From Hydrogenovibrio kuenenii DSM 12350 (lineage in GTDB: Bacteria > Pseudomonadota > Gammaproteobacteria > Thiomicrospirales > Thiomicrospiraceae): a DNA stretch of 64,000 bases. The stretch spans positions 868,001 through 932,000 of the forward strand of contig NZ_JAGP01000001.1 of the NCBI RefSeq assembly GCF_000526715.1, written 5' to 3'. Below are positions 31,047 to 39,239 of the stretch, in pieces; position 1 is the first letter of the stretch, and every line of letters starts with the position of its first letter. Made by a program: the position numbers and the translations under genes. Below the pieces are notes generated by a model. That model searched no databases and was not told the DNA's origin. It worked only from the letters and a program-made list of their open reading frames with translations.

Positions 31047-32261
31047 TTAAATCTGATGCTGTTCAAACATTTGCGGTGCGTAACGGTTAACCAAGCTTGA
31101 AAAGTTTTTGTGAATAATACGGCGATGCCAAGGCAAATGATGGCAATAAAAAGCGGTATATTCCAAAGTTGGTTCACCACCGCGAGCACGTTTAAAACTC
31201 CCCGCACCAGAACTCAAATTCATCGGTTGTTTGCGCTCATAAGTTAGACGCAGTAAAACAGCCATCAAAAGTCGATAAAGTCCCAATTCCTGCGGTAAGC
31301 TGGTGTCGTAGCCGACAATAGGTGTGGTGATGGTGTTTTGCTGGGTGAATAGTCCAATTGAAGCCACGATGCGACCCGTTTCATCGGTAAAACTATGGAA
31401 TTCGACTAACGCATTATCATGTAATGCTTTCAAAAAACTTTCAGTAAACTGAGGGTTGTAGCGAGAGTGCTTTTCAATAAACAGTTGATTAAAGCATTGT
31501 TGAATCTCAGCAAAATGATGCGTTTCTAGCGCTTCTGGCTTTAACCATTTAAGCGTTGTTTTTCCTGCCTCAACTTTTCTTAATAGTGACTGGTCTTTTT
31601 TGGTGTGATTGCGTTTCCACCACGTTTGATTCGTGTCGAATAAATAGACTTGTCTTGCAGGGATTAACAACCAACCTTGATCGGATAGGGTTTGCATTAG
31701 TTCAGCGTTATGTTCGGCATTGAGTGAGCGAATGCTTAAAGAGTGAGAAGGGTATTCTCGGATTAGCTTTTGAGTAGTTTTCTGCAGTTCATACGGATTG
31801 AATTTTGGTAAGAGATTGGTTGATACCAGCCAGTTGTTTACCGAGATAGTACGATTTATCTGGCCAAGCTTTAAAAATCTGCCAGCCAGGGTCATACTTG
31901 CAGAAAGCAACTTTTCCAATAAAGGGCGTTTCAATAAGCCCAATTCATCCTTGGCATAGCTGATATAAGCGGTATAAGGCGAGCAGACGTAGCTGTTTTC
32001 ATATTCAGCACTGTTGATGCTCATAGGTAAAGTCGTATTGCCAATACTGACTGTTCTATATAAGGTTTCAATATTGTTTATGACAGGCTGCTGGGAAGTG
32101 TTTGCATTATGAATGAGTTCAACAAACTTTTCAGCCTGCAGGTTAGAAAGTTGTTCTAGTAAAGATGCGTCGTGATAATGACTAGAGCTAACCTTGTTGG
32201 AGGTTAACTCTATATCGTATTTATCATTTAGTACGGGGTGTTTACTGGTGATAGTAGACAT
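31047..32261 (-). CDS. GNAT/BioF2-like acyltransferase-type protein downstream of btaA
   Basis: A protein of about 404 aa without signal peptide. The C-terminal half (about 210-400) resembles the BioF2-like/FemX-type GNAT group: EIQQCFNQLFIEKHSRY, IVASIGLFTQQNT, and SGAGSFKRARGGEPTLEY near the end. The N-terminal half is unassigned. No S-adenosylmethionine motif of a BtaB methyltransferase is visible. It overlaps btaA by about 20 bp, so the two are co-translated and probably act on the same lipid. GTG at 32267 is possible; the ATG at 32261 with GGCGG ahead is preferred. The exact reaction is unknown. It contains a degenerate copy of the dispersed motif. Confidence 0.72.
   Translation of the reverse strand: MSTITSKHPVLNDKYDIELTSNKVSSSHYHDASLLEQLSNLQAEKFVELIHNANTSQQPVINNIETLYRTVSIGNTTLPMSINSAEYENSYVCSPYTAYISYAKDELGLLKRPLLEKLLSASMTLAGRFLKLGQINRTISVNNWLVSTNLLPKFNPYELQKTTQKLIREYPSHSLSIRSLNAEHNAELMQTLSDQGWLLIPARQVYLFDTNQTWWKRNHTKKDQSLLRKVEAGKTTLKWLKPEALETHHFAEIQQCFNQLFIEKHSRYNPQFTESFLKALHDNALVEFHSFTDETGRIVASIGLFTQQNTITTPIVGYDTSLPQELGLYRLLMAVLLRLTYERKQPMNLSSGAGSFKRARGGEPTLEYTAFYCHHLPWHRRIIHKNFSSLVNRYAPQMFEQHQI
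31874..31892 (+). repeat. Dispersed motif, variant copy 6 (inside GNAT-like gene, antisense)
   Basis: Reads AAAATCTGCCAGCCAGGGT: the left ten bases and the GGGT end fit, but the centre is CCAGCCAGG instead of CCAGGCTGG. Confidence 0.55.
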
Positions 32262-33516
32262 GAACACCGCCGTAGATAGCTGAACGGTCTTTCAATGTCC
32301 AAGCACGGTTTTCTTCAACATCGGTTTTCCAAGGATCAAGAATTTGTGTAGGCAACTTATCTTCCAGAGGAGAGGTTTCCCCAGCGGTTCTAAACACCAC
32401 TCGCGCACCCGGCATTGCCGTACGATTCACTTCTTGCCAAAGTTCAGTCAGTTGAGCTTCATCCATCCAATCTTGTGCATCAAGGAACAGATATGCGTTC
32501 AAGCTGTTGTCCGGCATCGCCTTTAAACGATCCGTCATTGATTGATGGAATACTTCCACTTTATCTAAATTTTGTTGCAGTGTGGCGTAATGCTCGGCCA
32601 TTAAATATCTTGGTACGGCAAGGCGGCGTTTGACATCATAGCTACGGTTAAAAGCTTGCCATGCGAAATAGTTGGTTTCTAATGGAAAGTCACAGGCTAG
32701 GCGTCGTGCACGCTCTTTCATTAACTCGTGCATACCCAATTTCATTTGTTTAGATTCTTTATCCATTTCATCAAACTGAGCGGGAGGGATGCCCAAGCTA
32801 TACATAACCACCGAACGGCTGCATAAGAACTTTAATAAGCGTGTGTCGAAAACGGGCGCGACATGCTCGTTAAAGAGGGACTGTTGTTCTTCTTGCGTAC
32901 GTGCAAGCATGACTTTGCTGATGTCATAACCATAAAGTTTACATACCCAGTGTATTGCCCCGATAAAGCGTCCAAGAAGACCATGGCGATAAAAACCATC
33001 AGTGAAATAATGAATGCGAGGTTTAGACCAGAAGTTTTCTTTGCTCTCCCAATACTGGCGTGTTTTTTCATCTAGATGCTGAGACAGTTTTCCGTAGTAG
33101 GTGTCTAAATTTTTAGTGAGGTTCGCTCGACCAAATAAGTCAAAGAAAGCTTCTTTTTCCAAATGCTTGATGGCCGCTAACTTTAGGTTAATCAAAGCAA
33201 TGTGTGCTTCGTTTAAATCAACCACAGTGATGGACTCAGGTTTAACAGTTAGATAATTTAATGCATTACAACCGCCAGACGAGATGGTGAAAACATGAGA
33301 CTGCTCATTTAAATCTAGCGCTTGAATATCAACTTCAGGATCTTCCCAAATTTGAGGGTAAACCAAACGATCAAACCATTTAGTGAATAGACGGTCTAGC
33401 AGCCCCTTACGGCTGAAAATGGAGGTGTTATTGACAGCGGATTTTAATAACTCTTTCGTCTCAGGGGTTTGCTCGTTGTTGCGATCTGTTTCTAAAGTCG
33501 GATTGACTAGGGTCAT
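32242..33516 (-). CDS. btaA: BtaA-like S-adenosylmethionine:diacylglycerol 3-amino-3-carboxypropyltransferase (DUF3419)
   Basis: BtaA moves the aminocarboxypropyl group of S-adenosylmethionine to diacylglycerol, giving diacylglyceryl-homoserine, first step to betaine lipids. Recognised by WFDRLVYPQIWEDPEVD, the SAM-binding FTISSGGCNALNYL and VVDLNEAHIALINLKLAA, and the later SRSVVMYSLGIPP and LFLDAQDWMD segments. Length 424 aa is normal. A three-unit Pho box lies upstream (33595-33627), which fits induction on phosphate limitation. The usual partner BtaB is absent; a GNAT-like gene follows instead. Confidence 0.88.
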   Translation of the reverse strand: MTLVNPTLETDRNNEQTPETKELLKSAVNNTSIFSRKGLLDRLFTKWFDRLVYPQIWEDPEVDIQALDLNEQSHVFTISSGGCNALNYLTVKPESITVVDLNEAHIALINLKLAAIKHLEKEAFFDLFGRANLTKNLDTYYGKLSQHLDEKTRQYWESKENFWSKPRIHYFTDGFYRHGLLGRFIGAIHWVCKLYGYDISKVMLARTQEEQQSLFNEHVAPVFDTRLLKFLCSRSVVMYSLGIPPAQFDEMDKESKQMKLGMHELMKERARRLACDFPLETNYFAWQAFNRSYDVKRRLAVPRYLMAEHYATLQQNLDKVEVFHQSMTDRLKAMPDNSLNAYLFLDAQDWMDEAQLTELWQEVNRTAMPGARVVFRTAGETSPLEDKLPTQILDPWKTDVEENRAWTLKDRSAIYGGVHVYYHQ

Positions 33517-33594
33517 GGCTTTGTCTTCATCTAAATTGCATTAGACAATAACTTAACCGTCAAATGTGAAGAAACCATGAACAAAACAAAGCAG

Positions 33595-33627
33595 TTATAT
33601 GACGAATTTGTGATGGGTATATGACAG
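33595..33627 (-). promoter_or_regulatory. Pho box upstream of btaA
   Basis: Three tandem 11-bp units on the minus strand: CTGTCATATAC, CCATCACAAAT, TCGTCATATAA. The first matches the CTGTCAT half-site exactly and each is followed by an AT-rich 4-mer, the architecture bound by PhoB. It lies about 80 bp upstream of the btaA start. Confidence 0.75.
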
Positions 33628-33690
33628 GCCACCTATTACATACTTGATGGCCAATATTGCGCGGTAGTGCTCAGTTAGATGGAGGCTGTT

Positions 33691-34722
33691 TTACAGGACA
33701 TTATTCCAATCAATATAACTAAGATGGCTAAGGAATTGATCTGCCGCTTCATTCCAAGTTAGCCCGGAAATTGATTCAGAAACTTGGCTGCGATCTAGTG
33801 TTAAACACTTATTCACAGCGACTTTTAAATCCTCATCCATCCAACCATTGAGGCCTTGAGTAATAATGTCTTTCGGTCCTGTGACAGGGAAGGCCGCCAC
33901 CGGTAAACCACAAGCAATAGCCTCGATATTCACCACACCGTAAGTGTCCGTCAAGGAAGGGAAAACAAAAACATCTGCACTGGCATAGTAAGCTGCGAGT
34001 TCTTTACCGAATTTCGCGCCAACAAAAACAGCATCGGGATAACGTTCTTGCAACTCTTCTTGCGATGGGCCTTTACCAACGACGACTTTTGTGCCGGGTA
34101 AATCCATATCCAAAAATGCCTCTAAATTTTTCTCTGGTGCGACTCGACCAACAGATAAATAAATCGGGCGAGGTAGGTCTAAGTCAATCTTACGCTCTGG
34201 ATTGAAGGTCTCAGTATCGACACCTCGCGTTACCACTGTTAGAGATTTAAAACCATGTTCTTTGAGTTCTTGTAAAGTTGAATCAGAAGGAACATAGGTC
34301 ATTTTCCCTCTGTTATGAAAGCGTCTTAACAGCGCATAAACCCAGCTTGCAGGAATAGGTAATCTTTGGTGAATATATTCTGGATATTTAGTGTGGTAGC
34401 CCGTGGTAAAAGGCAATTTATATTTTAGGCAGATGTTGCGTGCGCGCCAGCCCAAACCGCCTTCGGTAGCGATGTGAATCGCATCGGGTAAAAAGTCGAG
34501 TAGTCGTTGTTCTAGATTTTCAGCAGACCAGACAACGGGAATTTCCGGGTAGGTCGGCATGGGAAAATGTTTGTAGTCATTAGGCTGAAAGACCTCAACG
34601 GTAATCTCTTTTGCTTCAAGCTCTTTGACCATTTGAGTGAGGGTGGTGACGACACCGTTAACCTGTGGTGTCCAAGCATCGGTGATTAAGGCAAACTTAC
34701 GAATGGGGGATTCAACCTGCAT
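33691..34722 (-). CDS. Family 4 glycosyltransferase, Agt-like glycolipid synthase
   Basis: A 343-aa GT-B glycosyltransferase: N-terminal TDAWTPQVNGVVTTL loop, the middle YHTKYPEYIHQRLP segment, and the donor-binding half with SVGRVAPEKNLEAFL, DVFVFPSLTDTYGVVNIEAIACGLPV (E-x7-E region). This profile matches enzymes that glycosylate diacylglycerol (Agt, SqdX-like). Divergent from the PlcP-type gene, the same pairing (plcP-agt) that replaces phospholipids by glycolipids in phosphate-starved marine and soil bacteria. Sugar donor not predictable. A weak Pho-box-like TTTCAC/TTTCAT repeat lies ahead of it (34785-34806). Confidence 0.85.
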   Translation of the reverse strand: MQVESPIRKFALITDAWTPQVNGVVTTLTQMVKELEAKEITVEVFQPNDYKHFPMPTYPEIPVVWSAENLEQRLLDFLPDAIHIATEGGLGWRARNICLKYKLPFTTGYHTKYPEYIHQRLPIPASWVYALLRRFHNRGKMTYVPSDSTLQELKEHGFKSLTVVTRGVDTETFNPERKIDLDLPRPIYLSVGRVAPEKNLEAFLDMDLPGTKVVVGKGPSQEELQERYPDAVFVGAKFGKELAAYYASADVFVFPSLTDTYGVVNIEAIACGLPVAAFPVTGPKDIITQGLNGWMDEDLKVAVNKCLTLDRSQVSESISGLTWNEAADQFLSHLSYIDWNNVL

Positions 34723-34826
34723 GTTTATGATTCTTTTTCTGTTGTAAATGAGTTGGTAGATAAGTTAGACGAAAAAAAAGTGTTTGAAATGAAACATTTG
34801 TGAAACAAAACCTAGAAGTGCTTCGC

Positions 34827-34859
34827 TTGTCATCTAACCGACACGTAACTGTGATTTAA
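34827..34859 (+). promoter_or_regulatory. Pho box upstream of the plcP-like gene
   Basis: Three tandem 11-bp units TTGTCATCTAA, CCGACACGTAA, CTGTGATTTAA, each ending in TAA. Units 1 and 3 match CTGTCAT at 6 of 7 positions. Same strong-weak-strong layout as the btaA box. Confidence 0.75.
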
Positions 34860-34909
34860 ATGAAACTTTCTCTGGTTAGACTGACGAAAATAATTGAGGA
34901 AGTGTGGAT

Positions 34910-35818
34910 ATGCAAGACCAACAAAAGCTCGATACTATGCCTGATTGGATGGCTTCTATTGCCAATGATGATTTGATTGTTGCGGAAAACACCCATCAAC
35001 ATCAGCACTACAAGTCTATTTTTATTTCGGATGTCCATCTCGGTTCTAAAGGGGCTAAAGCCCAATTTTTAGCAGATTTTCTTAAATACAATCACTGCGA
35101 CAACCTTTATTTGGTGGGCGATATTATTGACGGTTGGCGTTTGAGAAAACGTATCTTTTGGCCACAAGAACACACCAACGTGATTCGTCGTATTTTGACG
35201 AAAGCCAAGCGTGGCACCAAAGTGGTTTTTGTCACAGGCAACCATGATGAATTTTTACGTCGCTATTCCGGTATCGATTTCGGTAATATTCTATTAACGG
35301 ATCAAACCGAACATATTTGTGTAAATGGTGACCGTTTGCTCGTGGTTCATGGCGACAAATATGACAGCGTTGTACAAACGCGTAAGTGGCTGGCAGTATT
35401 GGGTGACTGGGGTTATGAGACGTTGGTGCGATTCAACACGCATTTCAATAAAGTCCGTCAGTTGTTCGGTATGCGTTATTGGTCACTATCTTCGTATGTT
35501 AAGCAAAAGGTTAAGTCGGCAGTATCCTTTATTACCGCTTATGAAGAAGCCGTGGTGAAAGACTGTCAATTGCATGGTTATCGTGGCGTAGTTTGTGGGC
35601 ATATTCATCATCCTGAAATTCGTGATATAGATGGCATAGATTATTACAACTGTGGTGATTGGGTAGAAAGTTGCACGGCTATCGTTGAAACAACGGATGG
35701 CAAAATGAAGTTGCTACGTTGGGTGGATATTGATCACGTTACTCAGAAGGCATTCTCTTCTCAAGCAAATGATAAAGCCGAAGAAAAGGCTGAAGATGAG
35801 AAAAGCATTTCGGTTTAG
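34910..35818 (+). CDS. plcP: PlcP-type calcineurin-like phosphoesterase (phospholipase C-like)
   Basis: A cytosolic metallophosphoesterase of about 302 aa related to LpxH. Metal motifs are in order: S-D-V-H-L-G (D41, H43), V-G-D-I-I-D (D71), G-N-H-D-E (N111-H112), VHGDKYD and VCGHIHHPE. Unlike LpxH it has a long N-terminal extension and the IFWPQEHTNVIRR insertion typical of PlcP. PlcP cleaves phospholipid head groups to give diacylglycerol that Agt and BtaA consume. The genetic context and Pho box support this over a second LpxH; the true lpxH is at 36.3 kb. ATG 34910 is preferred over GTG 34904 by spacing to GAGGA. Confidence 0.84.
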   Translation: MQDQQKLDTMPDWMASIANDDLIVAENTHQHQHYKSIFISDVHLGSKGAKAQFLADFLKYNHCDNLYLVGDIIDGWRLRKRIFWPQEHTNVIRRILTKAKRGTKVVFVTGNHDEFLRRYSGIDFGNILLTDQTEHICVNGDRLLVVHGDKYDSVVQTRKWLAVLGDWGYETLVRFNTHFNKVRQLFGMRYWSLSSYVKQKVKSAVSFITAYEEAVVKDCQLHGYRGVVCGHIHHPEIRDIDGIDYYNCGDWVESCTAIVETTDGKMKLLRWVDIDHVTQKAFSSQANDKAEEKAEDEKSISV

Positions 35819-35904: not shown

Positions 35905-36291
35905 ATGAAACTCCATTGCGCGCAATTGGCCGGAGAAACGGATGTTTTGCTTTCCTCTTCAGAACAAACGGAATATCTTGCATCACTACTCAATAAACTG
36001 AAATCCTGCATCACCTATCAGTTAGCAGAAATGGACAAATCCAAGCTTGAAGCTGAGATGGTTCAAGACATGTCGCATATCAGCCAAGCCGCAGTTTACG
36101 CGGGCAATTTGACTGTAGATAATATCGACTGGGTTAAAGACAATCTATTCCGCTGTGATTACTCGTACGATTGGCAAATCGGCTGGACTTGTTCCGGTAC
36201 GCAAGAAGAAGGGCGGGTAAATGAGAAGGTTCGGTTCTCTCTAGAACCAGATGGCAGTTTGAAGTTTAAATTTTTAAAGCTGGAGTTTTAA
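35905..36291 (+). CDS. Conserved small protein of unknown function
   Basis: A protein of about 128 aa with no signal peptide or membrane span. It has a helical N-terminal half (EYLASLLNKLKSCITYQLAEM) and a beta-rich C-terminal half ending RFSLEPDGSLKFKFLKLEF. No family recognised. A GTG at 35896 would add three residues; the ATG at 35905 is chosen. It follows the plcP-like gene by 86 bp and converges on lpxH, with the two stop codons overlapping by 4 bp. Confidence 0.7.
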   Translation: MKLHCAQLAGETDVLLSSSEQTEYLASLLNKLKSCITYQLAEMDKSKLEAEMVQDMSHISQAAVYAGNLTVDNIDWVKDNLFRCDYSYDWQIGWTCSGTQEEGRVNEKVRFSLEPDGSLKFKFLKLEF

Positions 36292-37031
36292 TCAAGATAA
36301 ACCCACTCAATCAACGGTTGAGTATCAGGTTGCTCGCTGATTTTAACTAGCTGCGTTTGCGGACGCCAATCGCCCAATGTCCAACGGTGCTTCATTTCAC
36401 CATTCACTTCAAAAGATTGCTCGCCAGGGCGATGTGTATGTCCGTGAATCAAGTGGTTGCAAGTAGGGTAGCGTGACATCATTGCCGCAATCGCTTGTTG
36501 GTTCACATCCATAATATTTTCCGCTTTGTTTTGGCTATATTGCTGAGATTTCTTTCGCATGCCTTCGCCAATGGATAGGCGTTTGGATTTCGGTAAATGC
36601 AAAAACAGCCATTGAATGATTGGGTTGCGAAACCAACGTCGCATTTTTTGGTATTCATGGTCATCAGTGCACAAGCTGTCGCCATGACTGAGCAGTATTT
36701 GCTCACTATAAAAATCTACCAGGCTGGGGTCGGCTAATGGTTGTATGCCTGTTGCTTGCCAAAAGGCGGATTTCATTAAAAAATCACGGTTGCCAAACAT
36801 CAAGTAAACGCGAGTACCTTTTTTAACCAAGTCTGAAAGCAGTTGTATCGCTTTTGGATAGGTTTCCAGCCCAATATCATCACCCACCCACATTTCAAAA
36901 ATATCGCCAATTAAATACAAAGCTTCGGCTTGTGGTGCGTCTTCTTGCAGAAAACGATAAAACGCCTGATTGATCGGATGATTCTCGTCCGGTTGTAAAT
37001 GAATATCAGCAGTAATGAGAGAAAAGGGCAT
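36288..37031 (-). CDS. lpxH: UDP-2,3-diacylglucosamine hydrolase LpxH
   Basis: Peripheral membrane Mn-phosphoesterase releasing UMP from UDP-2,3-diacylglucosamine to form lipid X in lipid A synthesis. Metal motifs: D9-I-H11, G-D43-I-F, G80-N-R-D, HGDSLCTDD and the final HLIHGHTHRPG. Length 247 aa is usual. A dispersed-motif copy at 36711-36730 encodes D101-P-S-L-V-D-F107 at a loop that in other LpxH proteins has equal length, so it is not an inserted block. A broken second copy of this gene is at 39022-39215. Confidence 0.95.
   Translation of the reverse strand: MPFSLITADIHLQPDENHPINQAFYRFLQEDAPQAEALYLIGDIFEMWVGDDIGLETYPKAIQLLSDLVKKGTRVYLMFGNRDFLMKSAFWQATGIQPLADPSLVDFYSEQILLSHGDSLCTDDHEYQKMRRWFRNPIIQWLFLHLPKSKRLSIGEGMRKKSQQYSQNKAENIMDVNQQAIAAMMSRYPTCNHLIHGHTHRPGEQSFEVNGEMKHRWTLGDWRPQTQLVKISEQPDTQPLIEWVYLD
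36711..36730 (+). repeat. Dispersed motif, copy 7 (inside lpxH, antisense)
   Basis: Full consensus AAAATCTACCAGGCTGGGGT on the plus strand, so antisense to lpxH. Sense peptide D-P-S-L-V-D-F. Confidence 0.88.
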
Positions 37032-38810: not shown

Positions 38811-39002
38811 AGATGTCCCTCCAATGACAGCAACTATAATTATAATATCTTAACTTAATATATTACGTACGATGATAAATTCTAAAATTAGAATTTCTTA
38901 CTATAAATTTAGTGATTTAATTTTATATATTTTTATTTATTAATTAACAACTTAAAAAGTTTTTATTAAGAGATGATTCTCAAGAAAAAGCTTATTAAAA
39001 AG

Positions 39003-39020
39003 GGCTTTGACCCCTTTATT
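39003..39020 (+). repeat. Short direct repeat bordering the inserted region, right
   Basis: GGCTTTGACCCCTTTATT; abuts the start of lpxH-derived sequence. Its reverse complement contains GGGGTCAAAGCCC. Confidence 0.65.
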
Positions 39021-39021
39021 T

Positions 39022-39215
39022 TGGTAAATGCAAAAACAGCCATTGAATGATTGGGTTACGAAACCAACGATGCATTTTTTGGTATTCATGGTCATCCGTA
39101 CACAAGCTTCCGCTTGCGAGGCATCTTCTTGTAGAAAACGATAAAACGCCTGATTGATCGGATGATTCTCGTCGGGTTGTAAATGAATATCAGAGGTAAT
39201 AAGAGAAAAGGGCAT
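39022..39215 (-). pseudogene. Broken second copy of lpxH
   Basis: The first 37 codons (MPFSLITSDIHLQPDENHPI ...) match lpxH closely, then about 245 bp are missing, with the join at a CAAGCT/CAAAGCT match, and a further 90 bp match the region around codons 120-145 but in a shifted frame. Homology stops at TTGGTAAATGC by the border repeat. Since lpxH is intact at 36.3 kb, this is a decaying duplicate. Confidence 0.9.
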
Positions 39216-39239
39216 GAATGATTGTTTCAATTAATTGTT

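Follow-up and report, generated by a model that had tools for sequence, protein, structure and literature searches.

Gene content of the locus

The DNA analysed here (the window) is a stretch of 64,000 nucleotides from Hydrogenovibrio kuenenii DSM 12350 (NZ_JAGP01000001.1, positions 868,001–932,000; genome size 2.45 Mb), which carries at 31047–35818 a locus of four genes: btaA, a gene for a GNAT-fold transferase, an agt-like glycosyltransferase gene and a divergent plcP. The original prediction had drawn this four-gene cluster as a Pho-type lipid-remodelling locus. All four reading frames are indeed open where it had placed them, and the gene anatomy supports a locus of this type, in which PlcP and BtaA are accompanied by a glycosyltransferase of glycolipid type.

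The agt-like gene, btaA and the GNAT-fold gene lie on the minus strand and plcP on the plus strand. btaA (32242–33516) encodes a predicted diacylglycerol 3-amino-3-carboxypropyltransferase, assigned from its conserved columns and from Pfam (357.5 bits against PF11899/DUF3419; cut-off 28.2); the genome is close to that of Hydrogenovibrio sp. JE_KL2, whose BtaA is 90% identical. The GNAT-fold gene (31047–32267) has its probable start at the ATG at 32261, which gives it a 20-base overlap with the end of btaA; such gaps vary with the chosen start codon, and the value is used for the window only. Its product, identified from PF13480, a fold model and its neighbourhood as a double-GNAT protein resembling FemX and MprF, matches PF13480 weakly (18.4 bits; cut-off 22), a cut-off exceeded by one betaproteobacterial relative with 24.6 bits. 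A plain acetyltransferase was rejected as its identity, because this sub-threshold match covers residues 268–345 only, whereas the fold spans two GNAT domains.

The agt-like gene (33691–34722), which adjoins plcP, encodes a GT4 glycosyltransferase, predicted to act on diacylglycerol, that is over the Pfam cut-offs for PF13439, PF13692 and PF00534; no NCBIfam model reached its cut-off among the matches listed (25 of 29). plcP (34904–35818) encodes a metallophosphoesterase (44.1 bits against PF00149; cut-off 21.5) which Pfam, comparison with LpxH and the neighbourhood suggest to be a phospholipase C freeing diacylglycerol. Identity with LpxH itself was rejected: the protein scores 57.1 bits on the LpxH model, below the cut-off of 134, and a true LpxH is encoded nearby at 36288–37031 (264.9 bits on the same model). 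Homologues of plcP, 41–48% identical, adjoin btaA-btaB in loci L072, L073, L076 and L077.

A GNAT-fold gene occupies the position of btaB

BtaA forms diacylglycerol-O-homoserine, which BtaB then trimethylates (extracts of PMC6302742). A betaine-type branch, as the original prediction had proposed, is not borne out in the window: the locus has no BtaB, and the best score with a BtaB profile in the genomes of the family is 48.4 bits, compared with 173–268 bits for BtaB proteins held out of the profile (n=28). The best score in the genome of the window is 46.3 bits, at a place also matched by a general methyltransferase family.

We sampled DUF3419 proteins in 369 genomes of the class (31 with DUF3419) and 398 genomes of the phylum (32 with DUF3419), which gave 58 distinct loci. 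The DUF3419 protein scores more than 320 bits in 49 of these, and in 46 of the 49 a BtaB-type methyltransferase adjoins BtaA; the other three, namely the window, G012 and G090 (in which the contig stops within the gene), have a GNAT-fold gene instead. The remaining nine loci encode distant DUF3419 proteins (<250 bits) with neither a BtaB nor a GNAT partner. Of the 55 relatives searched, 34 belong to the family of the window. The same 19 of these 34 genomes hold both BtaA and the GNAT gene, and both are missing from the other 15, neither ever being found alone; PlcP is present also in some genomes that lack the pair.

A scan of named genomes confirmed 133 GNAT relatives, and in the fetched DNA of the best 80, which were retained, BtaA was found at 33 loci. 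Holders of the pair belong to Hydrogenovibrio, Thiomicrorhabdus, Thiomicrospira, Piscirickettsiaceae and Thiotrichales and include a gammaproteobacterial metagenome-assembled genome (MAG); further holders are Undibacterium, Vogesella, other betaproteobacterial records and one Verrucomicrobium MAG. Together with the window and 19 stretches from relatives, the 80 named loci make 100 loci examined, some genomes being counted twice, and BtaA and the GNAT protein occur together in 53 of them (33 named, 19 relatives and the window). In all 53 the GNAT gene follows btaA downstream on one strand, and none has BtaB; PlcP is encoded in the same locus for 32 pairs, and Agt in the fetched DNA of six. BtaA and the GNAT-fold protein co-occur, and the GNAT-fold gene, which the original prediction had named without interpreting it, occupies the position of btaB.

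One relative of the GNAT protein lies in a different setting (L111:1652–9311), together with genes for KAS III, an OleD-like reductase, a lactonase-like metallo-hydrolase, a PRK06849-type protein, a Rieske oxygenase and an F390-synthetase-like ligase. Comparable BtaA-free clusters are found in L101, L102, L121, L136, L143, L162 and others, and clustering showed similar genes recurring in Stenotrophomonas, Opitutaceae, Paenibacillus, Shewanella surugensis and others. Clusters of this type resemble an unstudied small-molecule or lipid pathway.

BtaA conservation and the origin of the pairing

The BtaA of the window keeps 48 of the 48 columns with a conservation of 95% or more across 45 BtaB-partnered BtaA rows (L245 left out), and no alignment column separates GNAT-partnered from BtaB-partnered BtaA at the thresholds used. 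Since its conserved columns are intact, BtaA should still make diacylglyceryl-homoserine.

We built a BtaA tree of 85 distinct proteins from the 94 that passed a length filter. All but one of its 39 GNAT-partnered rows form a single set (support 99/99), which is joined by one BtaB row, L245, on a long branch (2.66) and from a locus with BtaA and BtaB on opposite strands. With midpoint rooting this set nests within BtaB-partnered rows from the same and other classes of the phylum (branch 93/88, unstarred), and the BtaA of the Verrucomicrobium MAG (L122) falls in the other BtaA subfamily. The tree requires three partner changes, two of which are forced by well-supported branches; replacement of BtaB thus probably happened once in this lineage and again, separately, in the Verrucomicrobium MAG.

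For the GNAT protein we preferred a tree of all 83 usable rows, built by a quicker method after 16 duplicates were merged and L069 was set aside as too short. The BtaA-linked rows lie together in it with L087, with two label changes, one of them caused by L087, which is without BtaA. An earlier tree of 72 rows, which left out L087, L094, L095, L097, L100 and seven chosen names, had one label change (96/96). In each tree L122 sits on a long branch.

Two of these loci have features of their own. In the Verrucomicrobium MAG (L122), plcP, btaA and the GNAT gene lie on one strand, in what is apparently an independent second pairing. The GNAT relative of L087 (5866–7071; 54% identical) adjoins an HlyD-like gene, identified by eye, and comes from a MAG labelled Synechococcaceae, possibly mis-binned.

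Fold and putative catalytic residues of the GNAT-fold protein

Sequence searches of the PDB with the GNAT protein, with its alignment and with BtaA returned nothing useful. An AlphaFold2 model of the GNAT-fold protein (predicted local distance difference test score 87.4) has a double-GNAT fold, and its top Foldseek matches are aminoacyl-tRNA-dependent peptide synthases and MprF (lysyl- and alanyl-phosphatidylglycerol synthases), with FemX slightly lower. A second structural aligner, run against the PDB, gave Z scores of 16.2–16.7 for the peptide synthases, 16.1–16.5 for FemX and 12.9–14.9 for the soluble domains of MprF. The modelled fold favours an aminoacyl-tRNA donor, without proving it.

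Phe358-Lys359 is invariant in the GNAT alignment (79 of 79 rows). A catalytic lysine of FemX type is described as Lys305 in FemX and within Phe328-Lys329 in DhpH-C (extracts of PMC12945691), and Phe358-Lys359 matches this FemX-type pair near the C-terminal end. Counted back from where the structural alignment to FemX 1ne9 ends (389 with 335), Lys359 falls on Lys305, provided there is no net gap. The loop at the coenzyme A position reads [QKT]-x-[LM]-[GA]-L-Y in alignment A1, its tyrosine being invariant (19/19); the usual coenzyme A pyrophosphate loop is Q/R-x-x-G-x-G/A. The proteins are basic, with a median isoelectric point of 9.2 for 38 BtaA-linked rows and 9.4 for 41 others, which is weak evidence for a tRNA binder.

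Pho arrays upstream of btaA and plcP

Genome-wide, a strict two-unit Pho consensus failed to stand out from its reversed control (27 matches against 21), and we therefore used a three-unit matrix, with weights of our own built from an E. coli consensus, and a degenerate three-unit pattern. Among 127,936 positions on both strands of the window, the matrix ranked first and second the two 33-bp three-unit arrays on which the original prediction had relied. The first, CTGTCATATAC CCATCACAAAT TCGTCATATAA, lies before btaA at 33595–33627 on the minus strand, reading towards btaA (score 23.7); the second, TTGTCATCTAA CCGACACGTAA CTGTGATTTAA, lies before plcP at 34827–34859 on the plus strand, towards plcP (21.8). 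The next scores, 13.7 and 13.1, overlap these same arrays, and the best independent site reaches 12.8. Over the whole genome the degenerate pattern matched without mismatch only the btaA and plcP arrays, as it must by construction, these being its source; allowing up to three mismatches it gave 20 matches, compared with 7 for the reversed control. A weaker array had also been suggested for agt, which we could not confirm: the two-unit site concerned (34785–34806, minus strand; two-unit score 8.2) has a three-unit score of 4.8, no better than background (95th percentile 6.9 for 189 control genes in relatives).

The DNA upstream of btaA was long enough for scoring in 18 of the 19 stretches from relatives (L062 was omitted). 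A three-unit score of at least 13 is reached before btaA in 14 of the 18 loci, against 3 of 189 control genes and none of 18 GNAT genes. In the betaproteobacterial pair loci the best site of the locus on either strand precedes btaA in 11 of 11. The tandem 11-bp units thus stand before genes, as in the Pho regulon, and are kept before btaA in most relatives. The genome encodes PhoB above its curated cut-off, flanked by genes that by eye resemble phoU and phoR. From these sites we infer that the locus is under Pho control and would be induced by phosphate starvation.

Two further Pho sites were noted in passing. The site at the pstS gene of this genome (L205) is weak, with a three-unit score of 7.7 and a two-unit score of 11.8, whereas pstS-like genes of five relatives (L207–L211) have strong arrays (21.3–26.6). 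Elsewhere in the genome a three-unit array with one mismatch (L248; G000:C1:1967946–1967978) precedes an arsenate-reductase-like gene and then GAPDH, both named by eye, and may link arsenate handling to phosphate limitation.

A proposed pathway and its alternatives

Phosphate-starved cells would probably exchange membrane phospholipids for phosphorus-free lipids. In the pathway that we propose, PlcP would strip head groups from phospholipids to give diacylglycerol, as its family suggests, and Agt would add a sugar to part of it. BtaA, its conserved columns intact, would use S-adenosylmethionine as the donor of a 3-amino-3-carboxypropyl group for diacylglycerol; the resulting diacylglyceryl-homoserine would have a free amine, on which the GNAT-fold protein would form an amide, most likely with an amino acid. 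The likeliest donor would be the aminoacyl group of a charged tRNA, as with FemX and MprF, and the end product would be aminoacyl-diacylglyceryl-homoserine instead of diacylglyceryl-trimethylhomoserine (DGTS). We regard it as an even call that the locus is a PhoB-controlled phospholipid-replacement cassette with a betaine-lipid branch re-tooled in this way. The narrower proposal, in which BtaA and, in place of BtaB, a FemX-like transferase dependent on tRNA make a new class of phosphorus-free membrane lipid, is advanced more tentatively, at a little short of even.

A number of observations weigh against this reading. Distant GNAT homologues (∼31–43% identical) are mostly without BtaA in the fetched DNA, and many of them lie in another biosynthetic cluster; even inside the BtaA-linked GNAT set there is L087, whose 7.6-kb contig carries no BtaA. 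The GNAT-fold protein is not matched by the Pfam FemAB or MprF models in any of 19 members, PF13480 alone being found, in 14 of the 19 (E 0.01), and we therefore liken it to these enzymes in action and do not call it a member of their families. As for the Pho sites, a score of 13 is not reached before btaA in four of the 18 relatives' loci (L057, L063, L064 and L068), two of the 11 betaproteobacterial sites reach just 8.8 and 9.4, and the Verrucomicrobium locus L122 has no Pho site scoring 13. A strong array of its own precedes plcP in just 3 of 13 relatives' loci, with L059 in addition on separate scoring (22.3 with a corrected start; 4.6 when the start is called too early). Where plcP lies 3′ of the GNAT gene (L060, L062–L066, L070 and L071) it has no separate array (−5.9 to 3.8), which fits a btaA-GNAT-plcP operon. 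Finally, tandem GNAT enzymes that use acyl-CoA are among the fold matches, 7q3a with Z 14.4 and VipF (6wqb) with Z 14.2 (root mean square deviation ∼6), level with MprF and below FemX, and N-myristoyltransferase reaches Z 12.0. Since enzymes that use acyl-CoA can thus share the double-GNAT fold, the donor is not settled by it.

These last matches are a point for the alternative that the GNAT-fold protein places a fatty acyl group from acyl-ACP (acyl carrier protein) or acyl-CoA on the amine of diacylglyceryl-homoserine, yielding a three-chain N-acyl-homoserine ether lipid; so is the precedent of OlsB and GlsB, GNAT-fold aminolipid enzymes that use acyl-ACP. However, the top fold matches are users of aminoacyl-tRNA, the Phe-Lys pair is of FemX type and the usual coenzyme A loop is not kept, and we consider a fatty acyl product possible but unlikely. 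An ordinary DGTS branch, in which another methyltransferase of the genome would do the work of BtaB and the GNAT gene would be incidental, we hold to be improbable. BtaA is intact, as such a branch would need, and further methyltransferases of this broad class are encoded in the genome, which gives eight weak matches to the BtaB profile; but the best profile score in the family falls far outside the range of the held-out BtaB proteins, BtaB adjoins BtaA in nearly all sampled loci that encode a close BtaA, and within the family the GNAT gene accompanies BtaA without exception. Least probable of all is that unmodified diacylglyceryl-homoserine is itself the membrane lipid and that the GNAT-fold protein modifies something else, such as the Agt glycolipid, in the manner of the streptococcal MprF that lysylates glucosyl-diacylglycerol: relatives of MprF do act on glycolipid and on diacylglycerol (extracts of PMC11630815, PMC8893666 and PMC10580965), but Agt is encoded in the fetched DNA of only six of the 53 pair loci and BtaA neighbours the GNAT gene in all 53.

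Comparison with known lipid-remodelling systems

According to extracts of Sebastian et al. 2015 (PMC4796936), plcP has btaA-btaB for neighbours in one type of cluster (type 1) and agt in another (type 2); putative Pho boxes in plcP clusters are reported there too. The type 1 btaA-btaB-plcP operon, as given there for Phaeobacter sp. MED193, shares with the window the BtaA family with its conserved columns and a PlcP in the locus, but the window has no BtaB and carries the FemX-like GNAT-fold gene in its place. The type 2 plcP-agt cluster of SAR11 and Erythrobacter (same extracts) shares the adjacency of PlcP and an Agt-like GT4 enzyme, Agt being likened by GT4 family and position; it differs in that the two genes are divergent in the window and joined to btaA-GNAT. 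The original prediction had held glycolipid and betaine-type branches side by side to be unusual. The agt and btaA branches do adjoin; the oddity is weaker than supposed, for the combination is known elsewhere: plcP, agt, btaA and btaB lie together in L243 and L244, which belong to other classes of the phylum, and L076 and L077 of the same class have an Agt-like gene 3–4 kb away from btaA-btaB-plcP.

With FemABX and MprF the GNAT-fold protein has the double-GNAT fold and the Phe-Lys pair in common, but it is set apart from them by its lack of a match to their Pfam models and by the linkage of its gene to BtaA. Full MprF also has a membrane flippase domain, unlike the protein described here. 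Enzymes of the OlsB and GlsB type are similar in being GNAT enzymes that make a phosphorus-free aminolipid; these acyl-ACP enzymes start from free amino acids to give ornithine and glycine lipids, whereas the double-GNAT enzyme of the window would act on a finished diacylglycerol-based lipid. In the literature searched, with subscription journals outside its coverage, we found neither a replacement of btaB nor a pairing of BtaA with a GNAT protein, and betaine-lipid synthesis is nowhere described there together with tRNA-dependent lipid aminoacylation.

We regard the locus as one of a known lipid-remodelling type with a new feature, the GNAT gene in place of btaB, and there is a fair chance that it makes a new lipid class, the swap pointing to a membrane lipid not yet described. 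A genome with this pair would be taken for that of a betaine-lipid producer, as in the original prediction. If the pathway is as we propose, the lipid of such genomes differs from DGTS and surveys targeted at DGTS would miss it; amino acids charged on tRNA would be spent on a lipid of phosphate starvation, and this lipid would be used by relatives in Hydrogenovibrio, Thiomicrorhabdus and Thiomicrospira and by betaproteobacteria (Undibacterium and Vogesella).

Neighbouring genes

Beyond plcP, a decayed partial copy of lpxH lies at 38952–39230 on the minus strand; its opening residues, compared by eye, are those of the LpxH start, after which it diverges. A GGDEF-type gene, also identified by eye, sits between this copy and lpxH itself.

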